DNA of 32,813 nt from Bacillota bacterium (GTDB lineage: Bacteria; Bacillota; Clostridia; Peptostreptococcales; Acidaminobacteraceae): positions 1 through 32,813 of the forward strand of contig JAUMWO010000006.1 of the NCBI GenBank assembly GCA_030529605.1, written 5' to 3'. This document shows positions 4,617 to 20,119 of the stretch, one piece after another. A program made the translations under genes and the position numbers. Below the pieces are notes generated by a model. That model did not search any database and was not told the DNA's origin. It saw nothing but the letters and a program-made list of their open reading frames with translations. Position 1 is the stretch's first letter, and each line of letters begins with the position of its first letter.

Positions 4617-5177
4617 ATGAAAAAAGAACTACGGAAACGGATCATCGCCGAGCGCAAAGCGATCCCGGCTGAGCGGCAAATCGCAATCGGGAAGCAAGTT
4701 TCTAAAAAGTTGTTGGAGGAACACTTGCCGTCCGTCATTTGCAGTTATGTCGCCTTCCGCGGTGAAGTCGATCTCGAAGCCTTTCACCGCGAGGTCCTTG
4801 CCAGCGGGCGGATCTTACTCCTCCCGTACACGACCCCGACCGAAATGATTTTCTGTGAAGTGGATTCGCTCGAGGACCTGATCCTGAGCCCGATGGGGAT
4901 CCCGGAGCCGAACCCTTCGCGATCCAGGCGATGGACCTACGATGAAATCTGGGCTGCCGCCCCCTTTGTCGCTACGCCCGGAGTCGCATTTACCCCCGAC
5001 GGATATCGAATGGGTTACGGTGGAGGCTATTACGACCGCTTCTTTGCCAAGCGTACCGCTCAGGGCGTCAAACGCGGAACGGTCGTGGGCATCTGTCACA
5101 AATTGCAAGTATTGGATGCTCTTCCGATCGAAGAACACGATATCCCGGTCGATCGCTTGTGCTTTATTTCCGAATGA
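4617..5177 (+). CDS. fau: 5-formyltetrahydrofolate cyclo-ligase
   Basis: A 186-residue enzyme converting 5-formyl-THF to 5,10-methenyl-THF with ATP, in cytoplasmic one-carbon metabolism. The N-terminus (MKKELRKRIIAERKAI) is the usual basic helix. The C-terminal half carries the family signature GYRMGYGGGYYDRFF, with PGVAFTPDG just before it. Full length for the family. The start at 4617 has GAGGAG just upstream; an in-frame ATG at 4482 would overlap the divergent promoters and add non-family sequence. The cyclic-di-GMP gene begins 33 bases after the stop, with no terminator between, so the two are probably co-transcribed. Confidence 0.93.
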   Translation: MKKELRKRIIAERKAIPAERQIAIGKQVSKKLLEEHLPSVICSYVAFRGEVDLEAFHREVLASGRILLLPYTTPTEMIFCEVDSLEDLILSPMGIPEPNPSRSRRWTYDEIWAAAPFVATPGVAFTPDGYRMGYGGGYYDRFFAKRTAQGVKRGTVVGICHKLQVLDALPIEEHDIPVDRLCFISE

Positions 5178-5210: not shown

Positions 5211-7949
5211 ATGAATTCGGAAGAAAGTATCTTGGAATGCAGTCTGATGCGGGACTACTTGGATTCGGTGTTGACTGCACCGCTGGTCAACCCGATCGAT
5301 GCAACATTTCAATTTATTCGTCGCATGTTTCCGAGCGAACGCGTTTACATTTTTGAATTGACCGACAAGGGAACCGCATTCAGCAACACCTACGAATGGT
5401 GTGCCGAAGGAATCATTCCGCAGAAGGACATGTTGCAAAACGAGCCGATCGAGTCGATCGACTGGTGGATGGAGCTCTTTGAAGGGGGAAATCCCGTCGT
5501 GATTTCGGACTTGGAAGAGATTCGTTATCAACACGCTCGCGCCTATGCTGCGTTGAAACCTCAAGACATCACCTCCCTGATCACATTCCCCCTCCGCCAT
5601 GAGCGCGAATTTCTAGGGTTTATCGGGGTTGACAATTTTCAGCTTGATCAGACGGACGATATCTCACGCTTCTTGGCAAAAGCAGAACCTTACATCGTTT
5701 CGTTCCTATTGCAGAGCAACCGCCTCCATGAGTTGGAATACCGTTGCTACCACGATCCTTTGACCGGCGCGAAAAACCAGCTCGCTCTTGCGGAAGCGGA
5801 TTCCGTACGACGCGAGACGTCCAGTTTGGGCGTCGTATTCTGCGACATTTCAGGGCTTCGAATGATCAACGATTACATCGGTCAAAAAGCGGGGGATCAA
5901 GCGATTGTTCAGTGTTACCAACTCCTACGCTCCGTCTTCCCTACCGACTCGATCTTCCGCCTCGGCGGGGATGAATTTGCAAGCCTATGTTTCGATATCG
6001 ACCAAGCGCAATTCGAACAGAAGGTACAAACGCTGCGGCAGATGGTGCTGAAGCACGAGCAACACATCACGGTCGGCAGCGTATGGACCGAGAAGCAACC
6101 GATTCACGTGCGAACCCAGCTTTCCCTTGCCGAAGCCTCGATGCACAACGAAAAATACAGTTCATACCGTGCTCCAAATGCTCGCATCGTATGTTCCGCT
6201 TCACCGCTCCTCGCAAACCCCGATATCAAGCTTCAACGTGAGGACTTGGCACCGGATTCCGGTGAAAGTGAGTTTACACGGTTCATGCAGAGCAATTACT
6301 TTAACCCCGAGATCCTCATCCAGTCGGTCACAGCTGCAGACGGACTCAATTATCTTTACTTCGGGGATCTTCAGAGCAATATATTCTATATCTCCGATAA
6401 CATGCGCGATCTCTTCGGATTCCAAAGCAATACGGTCGCAAACTTGATTGCAGTTTGGGAAAATCGAATCAGCAACCCAGAAGACCTCCATATGTACCGC
6501 CGCGACATCGCTGAGCTTCTGAAACAAAAAAAAGACATCCACGATCTCCGATACCGCGTCTTCGACGTCTCGGGGCACGAGATCTGGATTCACTGTCACG
6601 GCCATGTCCACTGGAACGAGGATCGCACGGAGCCTCTTTTTTTCGCGGGCTGCATCATCCGCCATGAGCAGGACTCGATGGTCGATCCGATCACCAGCTT
6701 CGCCAAAGAACCTGCAGCGATCACAAAGTTGGCGATGTATCAAGCCGACGAGACTCCGATCTCAATCATCGGCTTTGCGATCAATAGCTTCACGGAGATC
6801 AACGAACTGCGCGGACGCCATGTCGCCAACAAATTACTCAATGACATCGCGCGCCGCGTGATCGAGCACTTTGAAGGCAGACTTCAGTTCTATCGTCTCG
6901 ACGGATTACGTTTTCTTGCGATTCGAACCCCGGCCTGCCGCGAGCGCGCCGAAACCTTGGCCATCCGACTCCGCGACCTGATCGGAGCGCAGTTCCGCGC
7001 GCACAATGTCATGGTACGCAAGCCTTGCGCAATCAGTGTGATGAATTCGAATGCCGGAATTACGACCCCCGAGGAAATTATTTCAACAACAATCTCTCTG
7101 CTCGCTTATGCAAAGAATTCCCCGGATCAGGACTATGTGATTCACTCGCCGGAGGCATTGGAAGAACAACACAACCACACAGAAATGGTGTTCGAAATCG
7201 CAAAAGACGTCCAAAATGGCATGGAGAATTTCCGCCTGGTCGTGCAACCAACCGTTCGTGCAACCGATAAAAAAATCATCGGCGGTGAGGCGTTGCTTCG
7301 TTGGAAATTACACGACAAACCGGTTCCACCGGATGTCTTCATTCCGATCTTAGAAAAAAACCGGCTGATCTCCTCAGCCGGTCGCTGGGTTTTTGAACAG
7401 GCAGTGCGAATCACAAAGCGCACAATCGCTCTCAACCCGGATTTTCATATGGCATTCAACGTAAGTTATCTACAGGTTCTCGACCCGGATTTCTTTCCGT
7501 ATATGAAGCAGGTTTTGAATACGTATGAACTGGAAGCGTCCCGGCTGACTTTGGAGTTGACCGAGACCAACTTCGACGATTCTCCTCAAAAACTCCAAGA
7601 ATTTTTCGACTCCTGTCAAAAACTCGGGATTCGAGTCGCACTGGATGACTTCGGCAACGGGTACTCGTCTCTGGGGCTGCTGCTCAAGTACCCGACGCAA
7701 ATCGTGAAGCTGGATCGCTCCATGTTAAACGGAATGAACTCCTCTGACGAAAATCGGAAGTTCATCTCCAGCATCGTGGGCGCCTGCCATGCATTCGGAA
7801 AAGAGGTTTGTGCCGAAGGTGTGGAAACCGCAGATGATTATGAAATGGTTCATCAGGCAGGTTGCGACATGATTCAAGGATATTACTTCTCTAAACCGCT
7901 CGAAATGAACGATTTTTATCAACTGGTCGCTGAGCGCGACCGCTTCTAA
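5211..7949 (+). CDS. GAF-GGDEF-PAS-GGDEF(degenerate)-EAL cyclic-di-GMP turnover protein
   Basis: A 912-residue protein without membrane helices. A GAF-like sensor occupies about residues 15-170. A first GGDEF domain (about 175-330) has an intact RLGGDEF at 250-256 and Asp212. A PAS/PAC sensor spans about 365-490. A second GGDEF-like domain (about 492-645) has a decayed motif, RLDGLRF (562-568). A C-terminal EAL domain (about 658-912) keeps the catalytic set: EALLRW (Glu693), Asn750, ELTE (782-785), DDFG (Asp812-Asp813), Lys833, EGVE and Gln889. It is therefore likely a phosphodiesterase that hydrolyses cyclic-di-GMP, and may also synthesise it through the first GGDEF. The ATG at 5211 follows GAGGTG by 4 bases. 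It probably shares fau's promoter. The second GGDEF is presumably regulatory or structural. No terminator is seen before the convergent HAD gene. Confidence 0.92.
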   Translation: MNSEESILECSLMRDYLDSVLTAPLVNPIDATFQFIRRMFPSERVYIFELTDKGTAFSNTYEWCAEGIIPQKDMLQNEPIESIDWWMELFEGGNPVVISDLEEIRYQHARAYAALKPQDITSLITFPLRHEREFLGFIGVDNFQLDQTDDISRFLAKAEPYIVSFLLQSNRLHELEYRCYHDPLTGAKNQLALAEADSVRRETSSLGVVFCDISGLRMINDYIGQKAGDQAIVQCYQLLRSVFPTDSIFRLGGDEFASLCFDIDQAQFEQKVQTLRQMVLKHEQHITVGSVWTEKQPIHVRTQLSLAEASMHNEKYSSYRAPNARIVCSASPLLANPDIKLQREDLAPDSGESEFTRFMQSNYFNPEILIQSVTAADGLNYLYFGDLQSNIFYISDNMRDLFGFQSNTVANLIAVWENRISNPEDLHMYRRDIAELLKQKKDIHDLRYRVFDVSGHEIWIHCHGHVHWNEDRTEPLFFAGCIIRHEQDSMVDPITSFAKEPAAITKLAMYQADETPISIIGFAINSFTEINELRGRHVANKLLNDIARRVIEHFEGRLQFYRLDGLRFLAIRTPACRERAETLAIRLRDLIGAQFRAHNVMVRKPCAISVMNSNAGITTPEEIISTTISLLAYAKNSPDQDYVIHSPEALEEQHNHTEMVFEIAKDVQNGMENFRLVVQPTVRATDKKIIGGEALLRWKLHDKPVPPDVFIPILEKNRLISSAGRWVFEQAVRITKRTIALNPDFHMAFNVSYLQVLDPDFFPYMKQVLNTYELEASRLTLELTETNFDDSPQKLQEFFDSCQKLGIRVALDDFGNGYSSLGLLLKYPTQIVKLDRSMLNGMNSSDENRKFISSIVGACHAFGKEVCAEGVETADDYEMVHQAGCDMIQGYYFSKPLEMNDFYQLVAERDRF

Positions 7950-8856: not shown

Positions 8857-11800
8857 TTATTTTTTATTTGCAAAGATTCGAATTACGACACCCAGCAGAA
8901 CAATCAAGGCTCCTCCCGCAAAGAACACCCATTCCGGCAATTGTCCGGTAATCGGCAGACCGCCTTGAGGAACATCCTCCGGTTCGACGTCGACGATCAC
9001 GATCTCCTTGGAGCCGTCCGGTTTCACAATGGTGATTTCAAAGTTGTCCTTGGTCGGGACACCGGTCGGGATGTACTCCCACCGGCCGTCTTGGATGAAC
9101 ACGGTACCATGCTCCGGTTTCTTGGACACTTCGACGATGTCGTTGGCACCGAACACGATCTCGCCGGTCGTCTTCTCCACGATCTTCTCGGTCGTGTTAG
9201 CATTGGTATTGGTCGGCACACCGCCTTGCGGGACTTCCTCATCCGTCAAATTCGAAGTCGGCGCGGTCGGCGACTCAGTCGTCGGTGCCGTCGTCGGCTG
9301 AGTCGGTTGCGGCTGCTCCGGCTCAGTCGGAGTCGTTGTGTCGCCACCCGAGTAAACCGGACGATTCTGCACTCTGTGTTCGTACACGAAGTGATCGACC
9401 CCACCCTTCTGAAGCTGAACATCGATCGAGAACGGCGTCGCATCCATCACATAACCTTCGGTCGCTTTGGTTTCAACGAAACGGTATTCCCCGAACAGAT
9501 CCGACGATTTGATTACAAATTCGATCTTGCCATTCGAATCCGTCGTCACGCGGTGTGTGACCCGACCCTGCGGATCGGTCACGGTGAACTCGGTGCCCTT
9601 CAGCGGGTTGCCGGCGGTATCGGTCTTGAAAATACGCAAGATACGATATGGTTCATTTTGGATCGTGACCGGATAAAGCACCTTCTTCACGACGCGGTTG
9701 CCGACCTGCTCGGTGTCCGTGTCGAGGATGACAACTTTGACGGCCTCCGCAGGATAGAATCCATCCTTCGGTGTCTCGGCCAGCCAATAGGTTCCGGCTC
9801 CGATCGAATCGAAGAGGAGCACACCGTCCGCATCGGTTTTTCCCGTGCGGAGGACGGTATTGCGATCCTCACTCAAGAGCTTGAACTCTACATCCCCGAT
9901 CGGTTGGTTATTCAGTTTGTTCAATTTTGTGACACGAATCTGTCGCGCATTGTCGTTGACAAAGGTCAGCTCCGCGGCCTTGCCGCCGCCCTTCACATTG
10001 TTAGCATCTGTGATTTCAATGTCTTGGTGCTTCGGAACAACGATGAAACCATCGGCTGCACGCCACTCCGTAACGCGATAGGATGACTTGCGAAGATTAC
10101 TGATCACAACGGTACCGCTCGCATCGGTCGTAAACATTCCGACTTGCTTGAGACCGTCGTTCGCGATGCGCTCCACACGGAAAACGGTGTTTGCGATCGG
10201 CTGACCTTCTTTGTCTTTCTTGACGATGCGAAGCTGACGGTTGATTCCGCTCTCGTTGACCGAGATATTGTAGTACTTTTGTACAATCACGATTTCTTTA
10301 TCACGCTCTGCTTGCGTGCCGAGCTGTCCGTCGAGCGAGACACGGTTGTACAGATTGTTCGAAGTCAAGAACTCCTCGACCAAAGTCATCTTGTAGTCAA
10401 TGTACATGATGTTCGAGATCTTGTGACCCGCTTGCAGATCCTTGCGGAACACGAGCCGGAACGCACGCGCTTCCGTTGGAGAACCGGTCGCCGGAATGTA
10501 CTCAAACCATTTCTCGAAGAATTCGTCCCCCTCTGCCACCAGATTACGATCTTGGTCATACAGCTTGAAGCTGTCTGCAATCGGCTCGAGCCCCGGGCTG
10601 AAGGTATCCGTAATCGTAAGTTCGTAGATGTCCGAACGTGCTTCGTTGAGTTTGAGCGTCCAGTCCGTAATATTCGATGTGCTCGTACTGGAACCCGACT
10701 TCGAGATGTAGTTTTTGAAATTGGTGTATTTCACGACACTCGCCGTGAGGTTCATCGGATGTTCCTGTTTGTTGCCGTCAAGGAATTTTCCCTTGGAAAC
10801 GGCGCCGTAATTGGCGCGGGTCACACCGACCATCTTGGTTTCATACGTGACCCGATACGGTTTGGCGAGCAGTTTGGTCTCCCCTTCGGTGTAGAAGAAG
10901 ACTTTAAATGAGCGCTGATCGTCGGCGACAACCACGCGGAAGCCTTCCGAAGCCGGGTCGACCGCCTTCACTTGAGCATTGCCCTGGTACAGCAGTGTGC
11001 CATTGGCATCGACTGTGTCCGTGTAGAAACGAATCGAAGCGACATCGAGTTCTTGACCTTCTTCGATGAACTGCTCCATCTCGAGATTGTGAATGTTGTG
11101 CCCACGGTAGTTGAGATCAAGCTGCCAGCGAATCCGCTTGTCTTTGAACTGTGCATCGGGATCGGTCGAACTCTGCGGAGAAGTCCCCATACCCGAAAGC
11201 GAGCCGTTGTGCTGATAATTCGAGTTGACATAAAACTCTGCGTCGCGGATCTGAACGGTATCCTGTCCCTGCCAAGTGTAGAACGAGCGGTTGACATATT
11301 TATCCGTAAACAGGATGGTATCCGGGTTCATGTGCGCCTTGAACTCGACATAGTGATCACCGTTGTTAAGCGGCGCATTGAAGTCGAGTACGAATGCGAC
11401 ATATTTCGCATCGTCCGCGAGCGAAACAAGCGGTACATAATTCGCCTCTTCGTCTGCCATACCGAGCGGCAACGCTTTCAAAGCAAAATCTTTGAACACG
11501 ATCGAATTCTTCACCACGCCGCTCTCCGCGAGCACTTTCGCGTCCTTGCCGTACAGGATGACCCCATTCGGAAGAACATCCTTGATGCGGAACTGCGGGA
11601 GAGCACTTTTAACCGGGTTGGCTCGCAGTCGGTAAATGACGGAGTGGTTGTCATCGTAGTTGACGCCGCTCTTGACTTCTTTCCCGAAGATGCCCGCGAT
11701 CGTATAGTTGCGACCAAAGGTGCGATTTAGATCCCCGATGATCGCGGTATTGCGATAATCGCTTGCGTTCTGATAGTTCGCATCCTCGTACACCGATTTG

Positions 11801-13755
11801 AGAATTCGTGTACGGAAGGAAATCCGAACCGGTTTCGTGATTTTGTTGGTAAATTTGACCTTGAAAGTATCGATTTGCTCCGGATCGGCATTCGGTACCA
11901 CTTCCACCGTGTAGTCGGTCACAGGTTGCAGTCGTCTCGCCGACCAAGCATTGCCGTTGTGCGTCCACTCTTCGACAAAGAGTTGCTCACCCGGAATCTG
12001 ATCGCCCACCAGGATCAAACGCTGCGTCGTGAGGTCGATTCGGTCGACCAGCTCCTCGACGCCGGTGTCGATGCCTGCCATATTGAAGTAGTAATCCCAG
12101 CGGACATATTTCTCATCGTCATAGCTAGTGTCAAAGTCCGCTTGTTTGTGGACATAGACGCCGTACTTGACATGTACGATGCGATCGCTTTCGATGTTCA
12201 CATCGGCAGGCTGACCCGCGACACGAAGCGAAGCGGCGTTGCGGAAGGTTAAGGTTGTGAGCAACGGATCCGACTCGATGTTTTCGATCAATTTGAGCGC
12301 ACGATCCGCGATTCTGGACTTGGCTCGCACCACTACCGTCCGGTTCGAAATGTCTTCATCGGCAAATGCGAGAGCAAAGCCTGCCGCATCGCCCGTCAGA
12401 TCGATGGAGGTCGTGCCCGCCGAGAGCGGCGTCACCGGAACAATCGTCCGAGTCACACCGTCCATTCCGGTCGACTCGATCACAACATCGGATAACGCAA
12501 ACGTCATCGGTCGAATCTCGTCTTCGGCTACCGGAGACGTGAGCAAATCATGGAGCACCACGTCCTTAAGAGGGAGCTTCCCCTCATTGATCGTGACGGT
12601 CCACTCGATCTCTCGCGAGTTGACAAGCGGGTTGTTGGATCGCTTCGTCAACAGAGGACCCGGACTATAGGAAACTTCCGCGGTAGCGGTTGCAGCGTCC
12701 TCCGGTTCCGTCGCAGCTTCATCCGGATAGCTACCGACTCCGGCGACATAAGTGAAGGTCGAAAGCCAAGGTTGGAGCAATTCCGCCATTTCCGATGTCC
12801 GCACGCGTACACGGAACGCTTTGCGGTATCCGCCGGCCTCCGGGTTCGGAATTTTAACCAACAGCTGATCACCGAGCACTTCGTAGAAAAACTGTTCACC
12901 GGAAGGTACGCCGGACACTGCGGCATATGCCGCTCCCTCCTCCACGGAAAGCTGAGAACTTGCATCGTAGCGAAGGGTCAAACGGTTTGTTGTTACACTT
13001 TCTACTTTCAAGCCCGACGGAATGTCGTAGCGAAGGATCATCATATCTTGGTCTGCCGACAGATTGACATTGGCATCGATCGTCCATAGAATTTCCGGCG
13101 CATTGCGAACACCCGAAAGCAGAACCGATTGACCTCCTCCGCCGGAAATCTGCGGCCGCAAATGGAAGACCGCATCGGTCCCGCCCTTAATCGGAACCGT
13201 CAGAATAAACGGCTCCGTCACCACTTGGTTTTGCATATAGACGCGAATGTCCGCCACGATGCCGAACATCGTCTCTTCTTGCGGAGCATATTCTTTGGAG
13301 AAAGTCAAAATGAGCTGCGTCGGATGGCTGCGGTCATCAAAAGTCGCGACGAAGGAGCCGTTTGCCCCCGCCGTCAGCGCCTCTTCCAAGGACAGAAGTT
13401 CCGACGGGTCAAGGCGCTGGTACACCGAAGAAATCGGTAAGGAATACCAATCTCCGACTCGAATCCCCTTCTCCGGTCCGGCGTTTTCATCGCCGGCATT
13501 TTTCGTGAGGACATACGCAAATCGGAAGTAATGCTCCGGGGAAACTTCCATCCCGTCTATGAGCGGATCGAAGTGGCTTCCGTCCGTTGATATCATCACT
13601 TCCGCTTCCATGCTGAGTTGGTCTGTCAACTCGACTCCCGATTCACCATCCGCGAAGCTCCCGGCGATGATCCCCGGCAGCTGGCTCACCAACCCGATGG
13701 TCAATATCAGAGCAAGAAGGACAGCAACGACTTTTTGGATCATTCCTGTACGCAT
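8857..13755 (-). CDS. Giant LPITG-anchored adhesin with collagen-binding-like and SpaA/Cna-B domains (intact paralog)
   Basis: A 1632-residue secreted wall protein. The signal peptide spans about residues 1-38 (basic MRTGMIQK, hydrophobic core, then GSFADGE). A long region (about 40-1170) of beta-rich modules resembles the collagen-binding/isopeptide-forming adhesin folds of MSCRAMMs, with recurring WTI or WTL and 'D..P.G' phrases. Three SpaA/Cna-B domains follow (about 1173-1270, 1271-1368, 1369-1465). Each has a Lys in the first strand and a Glu in the last (TEW, AET, VET), as expected for internal isopeptide bonds. Then come a Pro/Thr linker (about 1472-1500), an Ig-like module (about 1530-1598), and LPITG at 1600-1604 with a hydrophobic helix and a basic tail. 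ATG 13755 follows GAGAGG by 5 bases; an in-frame GTG at 13761 overlaps that site. A sortase must act in trans. The ligand is unknown. Confidence 0.88.
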   Translation of the reverse strand: MRTGMIQKVVAVLLALILTIGLVSQLPGIIAGSFADGESGVELTDQLSMEAEVMISTDGSHFDPLIDGMEVSPEHYFRFAYVLTKNAGDENAGPEKGIRVGDWYSLPISSVYQRLDPSELLSLEEALTAGANGSFVATFDDRSHPTQLILTFSKEYAPQEETMFGIVADIRVYMQNQVVTEPFILTVPIKGGTDAVFHLRPQISGGGGQSVLLSGVRNAPEILWTIDANVNLSADQDMMILRYDIPSGLKVESVTTNRLTLRYDASSQLSVEEGAAYAAVSGVPSGEQFFYEVLGDQLLVKIPNPEAGGYRKAFRVRVRTSEMAELLQPWLSTFTYVAGVGSYPDEAATEPEDAATATAEVSYSPGPLLTKRSNNPLVNSREIEWTVTINEGKLPLKDVVLHDLLTSPVAEDEIRPMTFALSDVVIESTGMDGVTRTIVPVTPLSAGTTSIDLTGDAAGFALAFADEDISNRTVVVRAKSRIADRALKLIENIESDPLLTTLTFRNAASLRVAGQPADVNIESDRIVHVKYGVYVHKQADFDTSYDDEKYVRWDYYFNMAGIDTGVEELVDRIDLTTQRLILVGDQIPGEQLFVEEWTHNGNAWSARRLQPVTDYTVEVVPNADPEQIDTFKVKFTNKITKPVRISFRTRILKSVYEDANYQNASDYRNTAIIGDLNRTFGRNYTIAGIFGKEVKSGVNYDDNHSVIYRLRANPVKSALPQFRIKDVLPNGVILYGKDAKVLAESGVVKNSIVFKDFALKALPLGMADEEANYVPLVSLADDAKYVAFVLDFNAPLNNGDHYVEFKAHMNPDTILFTDKYVNRSFYTWQGQDTVQIRDAEFYVNSNYQHNGSLSGMGTSPQSSTDPDAQFKDKRIRWQLDLNYRGHNIHNLEMEQFIEEGQELDVASIRFYTDTVDANGTLLYQGNAQVKAVDPASEGFRVVVADDQRSFKVFFYTEGETKLLAKPYRVTYETKMVGVTRANYGAVSKGKFLDGNKQEHPMNLTASVVKYTNFKNYISKSGSSTSTSNITDWTLKLNEARSDIYELTITDTFSPGLEPIADSFKLYDQDRNLVAEGDEFFEKWFEYIPATGSPTEARAFRLVFRKDLQAGHKISNIMYIDYKMTLVEEFLTSNNLYNRVSLDGQLGTQAERDKEIVIVQKYYNISVNESGINRQLRIVKKDKEGQPIANTVFRVERIANDGLKQVGMFTTDASGTVVISNLRKSSYRVTEWRAADGFIVVPKHQDIEITDANNVKGGGKAAELTFVNDNARQIRVTKLNKLNNQPIGDVEFKLLSEDRNTVLRTGKTDADGVLLFDSIGAGTYWLAETPKDGFYPAEAVKVVILDTDTEQVGNRVVKKVLYPVTIQNEPYRILRIFKTDTAGNPLKGTEFTVTDPQGRVTHRVTTDSNGKIEFVIKSSDLFGEYRFVETKATEGYVMDATPFSIDVQLQKGGVDHFVYEHRVQNRPVYSGGDTTTPTEPEQPQPTQPTTAPTTESPTAPTSNLTDEEVPQGGVPTNTNANTTEKIVEKTTGEIVFGANDIVEVSKKPEHGTVFIQDGRWEYIPTGVPTKDNFEITIVKPDGSKEIVIVDVEPEDVPQGGLPITGQLPEWVFFAGGALIVLLGVVIRIFANKK

Positions 13756-13811: not shown

Positions 13812-13840
13812 AAAAAGGCGGTGCCGAAGCACCGCCTTTT
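13812..13840 (-). terminator. Strong terminator between the two adhesin genes
   Basis: A perfect 12-bp stem (AAAAGGCGGTGC / GCACCGCCTTTT) with a UUCG loop on the minus strand is followed by a T run. It lies 42 bases beyond the stop of the interrupted adhesin and separates it from the promoter of the next one. The symmetric A/T flanks could also let it stop + strand transcripts. Confidence 0.92.
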
Positions 13841-13882: not shown

Positions 13883-16744
13883 CTACGCACGGCGATTGAA
13901 GAAACGTACCGCGACCCCCATCAGAACCACGAGCGCTCCACTGACATAGAAGAGCCACTCAGGGAGTTGACCGGTGATCGGCAGACCGCCCTGCGGGATG
14001 TTCTCAGGAACGATGTCGATTTCGACGGTCTCCTTCGATCCGTCCGGTCGAACGATCGTGACGACAAAGCTGTCCTTCGTCGGAACGCCCAGCGGGATGT
14101 ACTCCCATCCGCCGTCCACGATGGTGACAGTGCCGTTCTCCGGCGGCGTGCTGACTTCGACAAGATCCTCCGGCTGAATCGGCAGGTCTCCACGTGTGCG
14201 ATCTCCGTTCGTCGTTGTCGTCGGCTCCGTGCCAATTCCTCCGGTCGCATCCGGCGCCGGTTGTGTCGGCTCCGTCGGAGTGGTTGGCTGAGTCGGAGTG
14301 GTCGGAGTGGTTGGCTGGGTCGGATCCGTCGGTTGCGACGGAGTCGGATCTGTCGGAGCGGTCGGTTGGTTCGGATCTGCCGGAACCGACGGTTGCGGTA
14401 CTGCCGACTTCGGTTGATTCACGACTTTGACTTCAAGCGGCTTGCCGCCTTTGTTGACATCGTTCGCTGCCGTGACCGTGAATTGCTTCGGAGCAGCGAG
14501 CTCGTAGCCTTCCGGTGCCTTCACTTCGACGAGGTCGTAGGTCAGATTCTGACGAAGCTTCTCGACCAGAGCCGTACCGTCCGATCCCGTTTTGAAGGTG
14601 CCCACCACAGTGACACCATCCGGACGCTTGAGCTCGACGCGGAACTCGACACCGGCCATAGGCTCACCTTTTTCGTTGACCTTGACGATCTTCATCTGAC
14701 GGTTGACACTCGATTCGTCGATGGAGATGTCGTAGTAACGTTGCAACACTTGTGCTTGCGACTCTTTCACCGCATCCTTGCGGAGCGCACCTTCCAAAGT
14801 GACTTGGTTGGTTACGGTGTTGGACTTGAGCTTGCCTTCCACCAGTTGCGTGTGATACTTGATCTGCATCTTCTTGGTGATCATCTTACCCGGACCCTCA
14901 CGGAAGATGAGGTGGAAGACGGTGCTGTCTTCGCCCGGATTCGGCTCGACCAACTCAAACCAATTGTCGAAGAAATCCTGACCTTCGGCAACCAAGACGC
15001 CTTTGTCGTCGTAGAGTTCGAATCCGTCTTTGAGCAGTCGCAGCCCCGGTGAATACGTGTCGATCACCTTGAGTTTGCTGATGTCCGAATACGCTTCGTT
15101 GAGCGTGATCGTCCACTCGATGAGATCGGTGTTCTCGACCGCTTTTCCGCCTTTGCTGACGAAGGTGTTGATGTTTTCTGTTTTCGAAACTTCAGCTTTG
15201 AGCGGAATATTGAGTTTCTTACCGCCCTTGTCTTGGAAGTGAACTGTCGATTGGCTATCGTATTTGGTGAGACGCTCGCCGACCATCTTGCCGTCGTAGA
15301 CAATGCGGTACGGCGCGTTGATCATTTTTTGGGTCACTCCGTCATGGAAGTGTACCTTGAAGCTCTTCTTGTCCGGCGAGACTTCGAATCGGATGCCGAG
15401 ATCGGCAGGATTCACCAGAGTCGAATCTGCATTGGTCTTGTCCGGCTTTCCGGTCGAATCGACGGTATCCGTGTAGATGCGGAAGGAGTTCTCATCGATC
15501 TCCTGACCATTTCCGACGGATCCTTCGACGGATGCATTGTAGATTTCTCCGGCGAGGTAGTTGAAATCGATTTGCCACTCGACCTTCTTTTCTTCCGGAC
15601 GAATCTCTCCCAGCATTCTCGCATTTTGTTTGATGAATGGCGAGACATATGGGACTTCTCTTGTTTTTACAACCGGCTTGGTACGGCCGTCATGTGTAAA
15701 GGTCGCCGTGTTGATCAACTTGTCGCCCAAGATCGTCGCGGACGGATTGATGCGTGCAAAGAAGCGAACGCGGTGATACATGCCTTCAACCGTACGAAGG
15801 AACTTGATCTCAAAGCCGTCGTATTTCTCTTGTGCACCGGCTGCCGGATCGTATGGGATCAGATCCGTTGTTCCGACCTTACGAACCTTGAGCTCAAAGT
15901 CCTTACCCAGTTCGAAGAACGGATGCTTGTTGTGCGGCGGATCCAGATGCCAGGAGGCTTTACCGATTCCCGTTGTGACCAGTTGTTGGAGATCTTCTCC
16001 GGTGACGATGACGCCCTGCGGCAGATCATCTTTGATCACGAGATTGGTAATCGGTCCCTCAACCGGATTGACCGCCAAGGTATACGGGATCTTCTGTGTC
16101 ACTTCATCGAATCCGGTGTAATACTTATCTTTATCGTTTTCTCTTGCCCAATAATCGTTGGCCTTCGAGTAGACATTTTCAACGGTGTATGGGAGCTTGA
16201 AATTGTATTTTTCGGTTCCTACGCCCGCAGTATTTCCAAATGCCGTCGTCACTGAATTTACCTTCGGATCCAAAGTCGTACGGATGCGGATGTAGACCGG
16301 GGAGTCGAGAGGCTTGGTAAACACGAACTTCACCTTCGTCGGCTCTGCCGGATTGAAGACGATGTTGAAATCTTTTCCGAGAACGCCTCGACTTGCAGTG
16401 AACCAGTCATGGCTTGTCGGGACATTCTTATTTCGTCCCAGTTCTCCATACAACACCTCGACCGTTTTCGGATCGATGGTCTTGCCGTCCGCCGTCAACT
16501 GGAACTGCTGGTAAGTACCGTCGATTTCGTCCGTCAACTCGGTAATGCCGGTCGGAATATTGGTCAGATTGAAGAAGAAACGCCACCAGAGGTAGTTGTT
16601 TGTGTAATCGGTGTCGAACGAGAATTGCTTCGAGACATAGTAGCCATGTCGAACGATGCGCTTCGCTTCCGAACTGTATTCCGTGCTTGCCGGTTTGCCG
16701 GCAAAGTCGAGGGATGCCGTGTTGACATATTCAGCGTCCACCAC
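13883..16744 (-). CDS. Interrupted LPITG adhesin, C-terminal part (frameshifted from 16564-18240)
   Basis: From the first usable ATG this frame gives 953 residues, but homologous sequence continues upstream to about 16793, so that ATG is unlikely to be a natural start; it has no signal peptide. Content: collagen-binding-like beta modules (about 30-680), one SpaA/Cna-B domain (about 683-780, Lys in MKIVKVN, Glu in YDLVEVKAPEG), a Pro/Thr linker (about 783-845), an Ig-like module (about 860-915), and LPITG at 921-925 with a hydrophobic helix and tail FFNRRA. Almost every module aligns with the intact paralog at 8857-13755, except that this protein has one SpaA domain instead of three. If the frame were restored, the whole gene would encode about 1451 residues. 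As it stands, the surface anchor is separated from the export signal. Confidence 0.8.
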   Translation of the reverse strand: MVDAEYVNTASLDFAGKPASTEYSSEAKRIVRHGYYVSKQFSFDTDYTNNYLWWRFFFNLTNIPTGITELTDEIDGTYQQFQLTADGKTIDPKTVEVLYGELGRNKNVPTSHDWFTASRGVLGKDFNIVFNPAEPTKVKFVFTKPLDSPVYIRIRTTLDPKVNSVTTAFGNTAGVGTEKYNFKLPYTVENVYSKANDYWARENDKDKYYTGFDEVTQKIPYTLAVNPVEGPITNLVIKDDLPQGVIVTGEDLQQLVTTGIGKASWHLDPPHNKHPFFELGKDFELKVRKVGTTDLIPYDPAAGAQEKYDGFEIKFLRTVEGMYHRVRFFARINPSATILGDKLINTATFTHDGRTKPVVKTREVPYVSPFIKQNARMLGEIRPEEKKVEWQIDFNYLAGEIYNASVEGSVGNGQEIDENSFRIYTDTVDSTGKPDKTNADSTLVNPADLGIRFEVSPDKKSFKVHFHDGVTQKMINAPYRIVYDGKMVGERLTKYDSQSTVHFQDKGGKKLNIPLKAEVSKTENINTFVSKGGKAVENTDLIEWTITLNEAYSDISKLKVIDTYSPGLRLLKDGFELYDDKGVLVAEGQDFFDNWFELVEPNPGEDSTVFHLIFREGPGKMITKKMQIKYHTQLVEGKLKSNTVTNQVTLEGALRKDAVKESQAQVLQRYYDISIDESSVNRQMKIVKVNEKGEPMAGVEFRVELKRPDGVTVVGTFKTGSDGTALVEKLRQNLTYDLVEVKAPEGYELAAPKQFTVTAANDVNKGGKPLEVKVVNQPKSAVPQPSVPADPNQPTAPTDPTPSQPTDPTQPTTPTTPTQPTTPTEPTQPAPDATGGIGTEPTTTTNGDRTRGDLPIQPEDLVEVSTPPENGTVTIVDGGWEYIPLGVPTKDSFVVTIVRPDGSKETVEIDIVPENIPQGGLPITGQLPEWLFYVSGALVVLMGVAVRFFNRRA
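14274..14324. repeat. Tandem 24-bp repeat in the Pro/Thr linker
   Basis: Copies at 14274-14297 and 14301-14324 differ at one base and have a 27-base period. Degenerate GTCGG units continue on both sides (about 14210-14390). They encode the PTxPTQPT linker, so copy-number change would lengthen or shorten the wall-spanning stalk in frame. Confidence 0.75.
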
Positions 16745-18240
16745 ATATGCCCACGGTGTATAACCGCTGGCATTCGCTTGCGGGATGAACTTGAGCGAGA
16801 GGTGACTTCCAGTTCTACGGTTTTGTTCGAAATGTCTTGGTCTGCAAAGTGGAGTTTAAACTGCGTTCCACCATTGAGCGTTTCCACCCAAGTCTTACCC
16901 GGGGTGTTGACGCCGAGAACTGTCACCGGAGTGCCCGGATCCGTAGCCGAAGTTTTGACGAGCATTTTGAAATCCGATGGATCGAAGGTCATTGGGTTCG
17001 TCGGGAAGGTCTTCGCGACGAGGTTGTCCGTCAATACGACATCTTTCATCGCAAGCTTGGACGGGTTGATCGTGATCTTCCAAGTCAGTTCGTTCTTGTT
17101 GATCTCATTGCCATAGTCCTGCGCTTCCGTAGGAAGAATGACTTTGGTGATCATCTTCGCAGGTGCAAAGGTCACGCCGGCCGTCGTCAGCGCAAGGTGA
17201 TCGGTCGCACTTTCGTCTGCAACCAGTTTCGCTTCACTTTGGTACGAGAAACTCTCTGCCGAAGGATCGATTTTAGCAGGATCTTGCAATGTGTCGACCG
17301 TAACACGGAATGCGTTGCGGTATGCATTGACCTTTGGATTGGCAATGCGAAGGATGAGCTCATCGCCTTTGACTTCGTAAGTGAAGTTTCCGGCAGCAGG
17401 AACCGCGCTACCCGCCGCACCCGTAAGCTCCGCACCGTATCCGTCCACTACGAGCTTACGGTCCGCGTCGATCGATTGCCGGATCGGTTGCACCTTCACG
17501 CCGCTGACGATCAGAGCAGGATCCAGTTTTTGACGAACGATCAACACCTCCTGATCGCTCAGGAGATTGCGGTTGACATCGATCGTCCACACGATCTCCG
17601 GTCCCGGGTCTCGTGCGCCCTGCATCGCGATCCCTGCGGCCATTGAATCCGGCAGGGTCAGACGCGCTTTGTAAGGTCGCGTTCCGCCCGACGGAAGTGG
17701 GAGCAGAATCTCATACGGCTCTTCGAACTTGTAGCTCGACATATACATTTGAAGGGTTGCGAGGATGTTGAACTCGGTCTCTTCTGCCGCGCCATATGCT
17801 TGCAACAGCTTAATGCGGAGGCGAGTCGGATTGACATAGGCGTCGAACGAAGCGACCAGATTGGTCTTGTCCTTATTCAAACGCGCTTCCATATCCTTCA
17901 GTTCCGCTTCCGTCAGCTTTTGGAAGACATTGGACAGTGGCAACTCGAAATAGTCGTTGGCTGCGATCTCGGTTCCCGATTTCTTGTGAACCGCATACTT
18001 GAAACGCAGATAATCGCCTTGTGCCAGCGCATTTTCCGCGGCATCGTTCAACGGCTGATATGTGATTCCGTTATCCGATGCATCGATCTCGACAGACCAA
18101 TCAAAATGGTCTGTAACCGGGTTCCCTAGAGTCCCGTCCGCATAGCTGCCGCCGCGAATCGGGAGCAAAGGAAACAGTCCAACTGCAAGCGCTAGCAACA
18201 ACAAAATGCTAATCACTTTATGCTTCTTGTTTGAACTCAT
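16564..18240 (-). CDS. Interrupted LPITG adhesin, N-terminal part with signal peptide
   Basis: ATG 18240 follows GAGAGG closely and opens a clear signal peptide (MSSNKKHKVIS, then a Leu-rich core, then GGSYADGT). The following region aligns by eye with the N-terminal region of the paralog at 8857-13755 (LTDQLS.. / VTDHFD.., EIVWTIDVN / EILWTIDAN, DISNKTVELEV / DISNRTVVVRA). Agreement ends at about 16803. Beyond it the frame runs into Ser/Arg-rich residues with no match, and stops at 16564. The paralogous sequence continues in the frame of 13883-16744. Removing two bases (one TC of CTCTC on the minus strand) or adding one would rejoin the frames. As written, the product would be a secreted fragment of about 480 native residues plus a foreign tail, with no wall anchor. 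Confidence 0.8.
   Translation of the reverse strand: MSSNKKHKVISILLLLALAVGLFPLLPIRGGSYADGTLGNPVTDHFDWSVEIDASDNGITYQPLNDAAENALAQGDYLRFKYAVHKKSGTEIAANDYFELPLSNVFQKLTEAELKDMEARLNKDKTNLVASFDAYVNPTRLRIKLLQAYGAAEETEFNILATLQMYMSSYKFEEPYEILLPLPSGGTRPYKARLTLPDSMAAGIAMQGARDPGPEIVWTIDVNRNLLSDQEVLIVRQKLDPALIVSGVKVQPIRQSIDADRKLVVDGYGAELTGAAGSAVPAAGNFTYEVKGDELILRIANPKVNAYRNAFRVTVDTLQDPAKIDPSAESFSYQSEAKLVADESATDHLALTTAGVTFAPAKMITKVILPTEAQDYGNEINKNELTWKITINPSKLAMKDVVLTDNLVAKTFPTNPMTFDPSDFKMLVKTSATDPGTPVTVLGVNTPGKTWVETLNGGTQFKLHFADQDISNKTVELEVTSRSSSSRKRMPAVIHRGHMWWTLNMSTRHPSTLPANRQARNTVRKRSASFDMATMSRSNSRSTPITQTTTSGGVSSSI
16791..16806 (-). other. Frameshift point in the second adhesin gene
   Basis: Minus-strand sequence GTCACCTCTCGCTCAAG: the upstream frame reads V-T-S-R-S-S, and the downstream frame needs L-K-F-I-P. 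Deleting one TC gives V-T-S-L-K-F-I-P, a smooth join. The distance from 18240 to 13883 is two bases more than a multiple of three. Confidence 0.8.
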
Positions 18241-18290: not shown

Positions 18291-18310
18291 GGGGGGGCGA
18301 GTCAGACTCG
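18291..18310. promoter_or_regulatory. G7 homopolymer and 13-base palindrome in the leader of the second adhesin
   Basis: A run of seven G (18291-18297, C7 in the transcript) is directly followed by CGAGTC-A-GACTCG (18298-18310). Both lie between the probable promoter and the ATG at 18240. The run could vary in length and the palindrome could form a hairpin or an operator; neither role is demonstrated. Confidence 0.4.
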
Positions 18311-18475: not shown

Positions 18476-20119
18476 ATGTTCTGTATGCAATGTCAAGAAA
18501 CGGCACAAAATAAGGGATGTACTCGAATCGGCGTCTGCGGAAAAAGCGCTCCGGTCTCCAATCTACAAGATCTGTTGATTTATACGGTCAAGGGTCTCGC
18601 CGAATACAACCGCCAGGCACGCGCTCACGGACTCAACCAACCGTCGTCCGATGCCGTCATTCTCGACTCACTCTTCGCGACCATCACCAACGCGAACTTC
18701 GATCAAGAAGCGATCACGCGAAAGATTTCGGTCGCGCTCGCAACACGCGACGAGGTGCGCCGCACACTCGAACAAGCCGGAAAACTCGAGTCCAAAGAAT
18801 ATCTCGATTCGGCAACTTGGATGACCGATCCGAGCCAATTTGAAGCCAAAGCGGAAGAAAAGCGCGTCGGCGTGCTCGCTTCGGAGAACGAAGATGTCAA
18901 CAGCCTGCGCTCCCTCGTCATCCTGGGACTCAAAGGGATGGCTGCTTATGGAGAGCATGCCGCGAATCTCGGTTATCACAGCGACGACATCCTCGCATTC
19001 ATTGAAAAGGCTCTGATTGCGACGGAGAACGATGCGCTCTCGGCTGAGGAACTCACCGCTCTCGTGCTCGAAACCGGTAAATTCGGAGTCGATGTCATGG
19101 CGCTCCTCGACAAGGCCAATACCGAGACATACGGCAATCCGGAGATCACCGAAGTCAACATCGGCGTTCGTAACAATCCGGCGATCCTCATCTCCGGTCA
19201 CGACCTGCGCGATATGGAAGATCTGCTTAAGCAGACCGAAGGTACCGGCGTCGATGTCTACACGCACTCCGAAATGCTGCCTGCCAACTACTATCCGGCA
19301 TTCAAAAAGTATGAACATTTTGTCGGAAACTACGGAAATGCTTGGTGGAAACAACGCGACGAGTTCGCGACCTTCAACGGCCCGATCCTCTTTACGACCA
19401 ACTGCATCGTGCCGCCGCACGACAGCTACAAAGATCGCGTCTACACCACAGGGTCGTCCGGATATCCGGGATTTAAGCACATACCTGCGCGTGAAAAAGG
19501 CGGCATGAAAGACTTCTCCGAAATCATCGAGCATGCGAAACGCCTGCCTGCTCCGACGGAAATCGAGAGCGGCACCATCGTCGGGGGCTTCGCACACAAC
19601 CAAGTCATCGCGCTTGCCGACAAAGTGGTCGAAGCCGTCAAATCCGGCGCGATCAAACGCTTCTTTGTGATGGGCGGCTGCGACGGTCGCATGAAGTCGC
19701 GCGACTACTATGCCGACTTCGCAAAAGCGCTTCCGAACGATACCGTCATCCTGACAGCCGGCTGCGCGAAGTACCGCTACAACAAGCTTCCGCTCGGCGA
19801 CATCGGCGGCATTCCACGCGTGCTTGACGCCGGACAGTGCAACGACTCCTACTCGCTCGCAGTCATCGCACTCAAGCTCAAAGAGGTCTTCGGTCTCGAT
19901 GACATCAACGATCTGCCGATCTCCTTCAACATCGCTTGGTACGAGCAAAAAGCGGTCATCGTACTGCTCGCTCTGCTCTTCCTCGGCGTCAAAAACATCA
20001 AACTCGGACCGACACTTCCTGCGTTCCTCAGCCCGAATGTCGCAAAAGTTCTTGTTGAAAACTTCGGTATCAATCCGATCCAGACGGTACAAGAGGACAT
20101 CGTCCAGTTCTTGGGATAA
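18476..20119 (+). CDS. hcp: Hydroxylamine reductase / hybrid-cluster protein
   Basis: A 547-residue, full-length Hcp. Known activities are hydroxylamine reduction in vitro and NO reduction/detoxification in vivo. The N-terminal cubane ligands are Cys3, Cys6, Cys15 and Cys21 (C-x2-C-x8-C-x5-C, the spacing of strict-anaerobe Hcps). Hybrid-cluster ligands are recognisable as GHDLRDME and [11 protein letters not shown] (His, Glu), [40 protein letters not shown], and the final Glu and Lys of [11 protein letters not shown]. The start follows GGGGG by 8 bases. It is a single-gene unit with its own regulated promoter and a downstream hairpin. Its reductase partner Hcr is not adjacent, as is common in anaerobes. 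Confidence 0.96.

Follow-up and report, generated by a model that had tools for sequence, protein, structure and literature searches.

Cna- and SpaA-type sortase-anchored adhesins (MSCRAMM-like; PF05737, PF17802, LPXTG) fall among the surface adhesins, a class in which phase variation is typical. Disrupted reading frames are met as single-indel pseudogenes or frame-broken genes of draft genomes. A known example of reversible switching is the surface-protein gene oipA of Helicobacter pylori, which switches through CT repeats placed at its 5' end (PMC10564699). For a tract to be called phase-variable, at least six dinucleotide units have been required (PMC6321876).

The window analysed here, a stretch of 32,813 nucleotides, comprises the entire contig C138 of a 71%-complete assembly of 1.65 Mb in 190 contigs. 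Gaps of exactly 10 N, typical of short-read scaffolders, are numerous in it. The phosphoglycerate mutase encoded on the contig is 67–69% identical to those of Fusibacter sp. 3D3 and uncultured Clostridiales, which places the organism as an uncultured clostridium resembling Fusibacter. Scans of genome contigs, viral contigs and plasmids confirmed no close relatives, and among the genomes searched the genus is represented by this one alone. Two large adhesin genes lie on the minus strand, with a c-di-GMP GGDEF/EAL gene and a HAD hydrolase gene on one side. On the other flank there is a hydroxylamine reductase gene (18476–20119), followed further out by glycolytic and cobalamin genes. The GGDEF/EAL signalling protein (5211–7949) adjoins the adhesin pair. 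A sortase (PF04203, 110.6 bits) is encoded on a contig other than that of the adhesins (G000:C85). One member of this tandem Cna/SpaA-type pair very probably carries a single small frame-disrupting indel near position 16800, a one-off event with no built-in switch. Its modules, together with those of its neighbourhood, are listed in Table 1.

Table 1. Features of the split adhesin gene and its surroundings (window coordinates)
Feature	Position	Strand	Details and basis
N-terminal fragment	16564..18240	-	ATG 18240; signal peptide-like start at residues ~1-35; 558 codons; stop 16566-16564
C-terminal frame	13883..16855	-	open from 16855 to stop 13885-13883; two Collagen_bind, SpaA, Pro/Thr-rich linker, LPITG
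Frame break	16795..16812	-	codon-usage switch point, homology limits, sequence
Collagen_bind (PF05737) domain	15242..15598	-	domain search
Collagen_bind (PF05737) domain	14789..15163	-	domain search
SpaA prealbumin-like domain (PF17802)	14459..14698	-	residues 715-794 of the C-half translation
LPITG sorting signal, hydrophobic segment and basic tail	13886..13984	-	translation
Terminator-like stem separating the two adhesin genes	13813..13840	.	12 bp, GC-rich
Intact paralog, 1632 residues, same architecture, LPITG	8857..13755	-	translation, homology

Both halves belong to one minus-strand gene of 4.36 kb (18240 to 13883), which, judged by its predicted domains, is a Cna/SpaA-type sortase-anchored LPITG adhesin with putative binding of collagen or another ligand. 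Scores of the C half exceed the curated cut-offs (83.5 bits for PF05737 and 52.3 bits for PF17802). The DNA holds both the signal peptide and the LPITG motif, but as assembled they are in different frames, while the paralog has both on one product. The initial annotation had described precisely this separation of the N-terminal part (signal peptide) from the C-terminal part (SpaA, LPITG), next to an intact paralog. Frames, stop codons, homology and codon usage all bear out the first statement, and the single-frame neighbour with its own LPITG the second.

To place the break, homology and codon usage were combined. In BLASTP comparisons with the paralog, homology of the N half stops at residue 482 (~16795), and the C half aligns again from ~16723. 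A codon-usage model trained on sequence of the same genome puts the switch point at 16802–16803, with positions 16795–16812 within 2 nats. The homology limit at ~16795 and the codon-usage interval agree with the earlier placement at 16791–16806. A frame switch is favoured over two separate genes by 29 nats, the second highest score in ~0.92 Mb, so the split exceeds by far what chance would give. The downstream frame is -1 (equivalently +2) relative to the upstream one, and every event with this net effect would fit. The proposed two-base TC change in CTCTC is one of several such events and is not established: immediately past the break, homologues differ in length by up to ~8 residues, so the data do not fix the exact size or identity of the indel.

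Three readings leave the locus without a fresh lesion. Programmed -1 ribosomal frameshifting joining the two halves would be in keeping with the -1 relation of the downstream frame and with the 292-nt overlap of the N and C frames. Nevertheless, no in-frame X_XXY_YYZ heptamer occurs within this overlap; TTTAAAC at 16860, the one heptamer of that form, does not lie in frame. Furthermore, the paralog and all homologues read in one frame, including those in five related genomes (G008, G018, G024, G048 and G055), which are open across the break position. We regard frameshifting as close to negligible in probability. Two separate genes, one for a short secreted N-terminal protein and the other for a wall-anchored C-terminal protein, are extremely improbable. 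A GTG at 16744, the first possible start of the C part, is available, but no Shine-Dalgarno-like sequence was found before it and the C part has no signal peptide. In addition, the coding signal of the N frame ends ~230 nt ahead of its stop codon, and homology with the paralog is continuous across the break. An older, decaying pseudogene is highly improbable: it would account for a broken frame, but a single lesion is present in ~1450 codons, with no further stop in either half. Codon-position GC, at 0.57/0.39/0.62 and 0.56/0.39/0.66 in the two halves, agrees with the intact paralog's (0.57/0.39/0.65). These values uphold the earlier statement that the remaining reading frame is undecayed. The split gene and the paralog are only 34–37% identical, which makes the duplication old and the break new. 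Identity to family relatives is ~26–32%.

The initial annotation had also offered phase variation by dinucleotide slippage, i.e. slipped-strand mispairing at CTCTC which would turn the adhesin on and off reversibly. Speaking for it are the typically phase-variable class of protein, a frame that is otherwise intact, and the CT-repeat switching of oipA. The tract, however, has only 2.5 repeat units, below the six-unit cut-off for hypermutable dinucleotide tracts, and it is a common one: the window contains 249 period-2 runs of at least 5 bases and the split gene 22, the longest in the gene reaching 6 bases. The break also lies ~480 codons into the gene, not at its 5' end as in oipA. The sequence lends this explanation no support, and we consider it very unlikely. 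Equally small is the chance of a genuine on/off contingency adhesin in another form, in which the mid-gene break flips despite its short tract, or a G/C7 run in the 5' leader tunes expression. Seven consecutive G (C on the coding strand) stand at 18291–18297, ~50 nt upstream of the ATG of the split adhesin, by a short palindrome. G/C runs of at least 7 are limited to 12 in ~924 kb. For the window, a first-order model predicts ~1.7; the run may be due to chance.

Other features of the locus were inspected as well. Of the promoter and terminator that had been described as retained, the latter is represented by the terminator-like 12-bp stem, while a consensus scan upstream of 18240 gave nothing above shuffled sequences. 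A riboswitch in the leader, e.g. for c-di-GMP, was rejected: no RNA family reached the gathering score anywhere in the window, none was credible in the leader, and the leader folds no better than shuffles (z 0.02). Inter-paralog recombination was likewise discarded as the cause of the break, the sole repeat common to both genes near it being a 34-nt, 79% match that merely represents the conserved FAD-DISN-TV motif. Over 263 nt, the C-terminal ends of the two genes (8873–9135 and 13899–14161) are 70% identical in DNA sequence, more than elsewhere in the pair. Family homologues also have a recurring pre-anchor module of the form PPENGTV..GKWTYTP.

The background of frame-broken genes was estimated by running a codon-usage frame-switch detector on ~924 kb of non-N sequence of the assembly, window included. 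Antisense shadows and gap-adjacent cases were removed from the candidates, and the lower-scoring remainder stays outside the count. Most intrinsic candidates proved to be antisense shadows of real genes. Candidates in an OppC-like permease and an amidohydrolase adjoin 10-N gaps, and for one at position 6018 of L189 relatives match solely as stop-ridden antisense. Two further conserved genes are frame-broken away from any scaffold gap. In uvrB (L171, G000:C42, 12154–14111, +), the break is near 13611 and the gene is ~37 nt short compared with relatives at 67–73% identity; the assembly yielded no second uvrB. A TrkA-domain K+ channel gene (L131, G000:C22, 4347–5428, +) is the second case, broken near 4770 at the nucleotide-binding motif and one nucleotide shorter than its homologue in genome G001. 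A 7-mer common to the adhesin and K+ channel breaks (GCGAGAG / CTCTCGC) was dismissed as a shared cause, with 8 occurrences in the window and a one-nucleotide shortage as the K+ channel lesion. Frame breaks at about one per 300 kb are thus background of the assembly, and the 4.4-kb adhesin gene is a large target for them. For uvrB, a fault of assembly is an easier explanation than biology; for the K+ channel and the adhesin, either may apply.

The preferred explanation, a single small indel in an adhesin gene, therefore has two forms. A real and recent mutation with loss of function, or a strain variant, has nearly an even chance, and so has a consensus or assembly error in a short-read draft genome; since one genome represents the genus, the choice between them stands at about even. 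Short-read assemblies seldom show small indels away from homopolymers, a point that speaks rather for a real mutation; the broken uvrB in the same assembly speaks rather for an artefact. The frame is disrupted with respect to intact homologues (the paralog and five relatives), as in a recent pseudogene. Both a pseudogene and a sequencing error had been put forward initially, and both are supported. The accompanying wording, "recent or reversible", keeps its first half, and an assembly artefact takes the place of "reversible".

As assembled, the allele would be null, a phenotype that we infer from the reading frames. Translation would yield a secreted fragment of ~558 residues which ends inside an adhesive domain and has no sorting signal, while the C-terminal part would be left with neither a signal peptide nor an evident ribosome-binding site. 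The finding, an adhesin gene of a draft genome whose frame is disrupted by one event, is ordinary and carries little weight beyond annotation. It does advise caution: a single break of this kind in a draft assembly is not to be taken for phase variation unless reads or strains back it, and the presence of other frame-broken conserved genes in the assembly is part of this caution. If the break were polymorphic in the population, it would document on/off variation of an adhesin in an uncultured Fusibacter-like lineage.

In comparison with described systems, the locus resembles H. pylori oipA in encoding a surface protein whose frame is broken at a short CT-type tract. It differs from oipA-type repeats in the number of units (2.5, not six or more) and in its mid-gene position. 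With Cna- and SpaA-type adhesins it shares the signal peptide, tandem Collagen_bind and SpaA domains, the Pro/Thr-rich linker, LPITG, and a sortase encoded in the genome. Among PDB entries, the paralog has collagen adhesion proteins as its neighbours (6fwv, 3rkp and 3kpt). The split copy departs from this family in the frame break and in its identity of ~26–32% to family relatives. Nothing notable sets the locus apart from single-indel pseudogenes and frame-broken genes of draft genomes, with which it has in common one break, undecayed flanks, and the company of a broken uvrB and a broken K+ channel gene in the same assembly.
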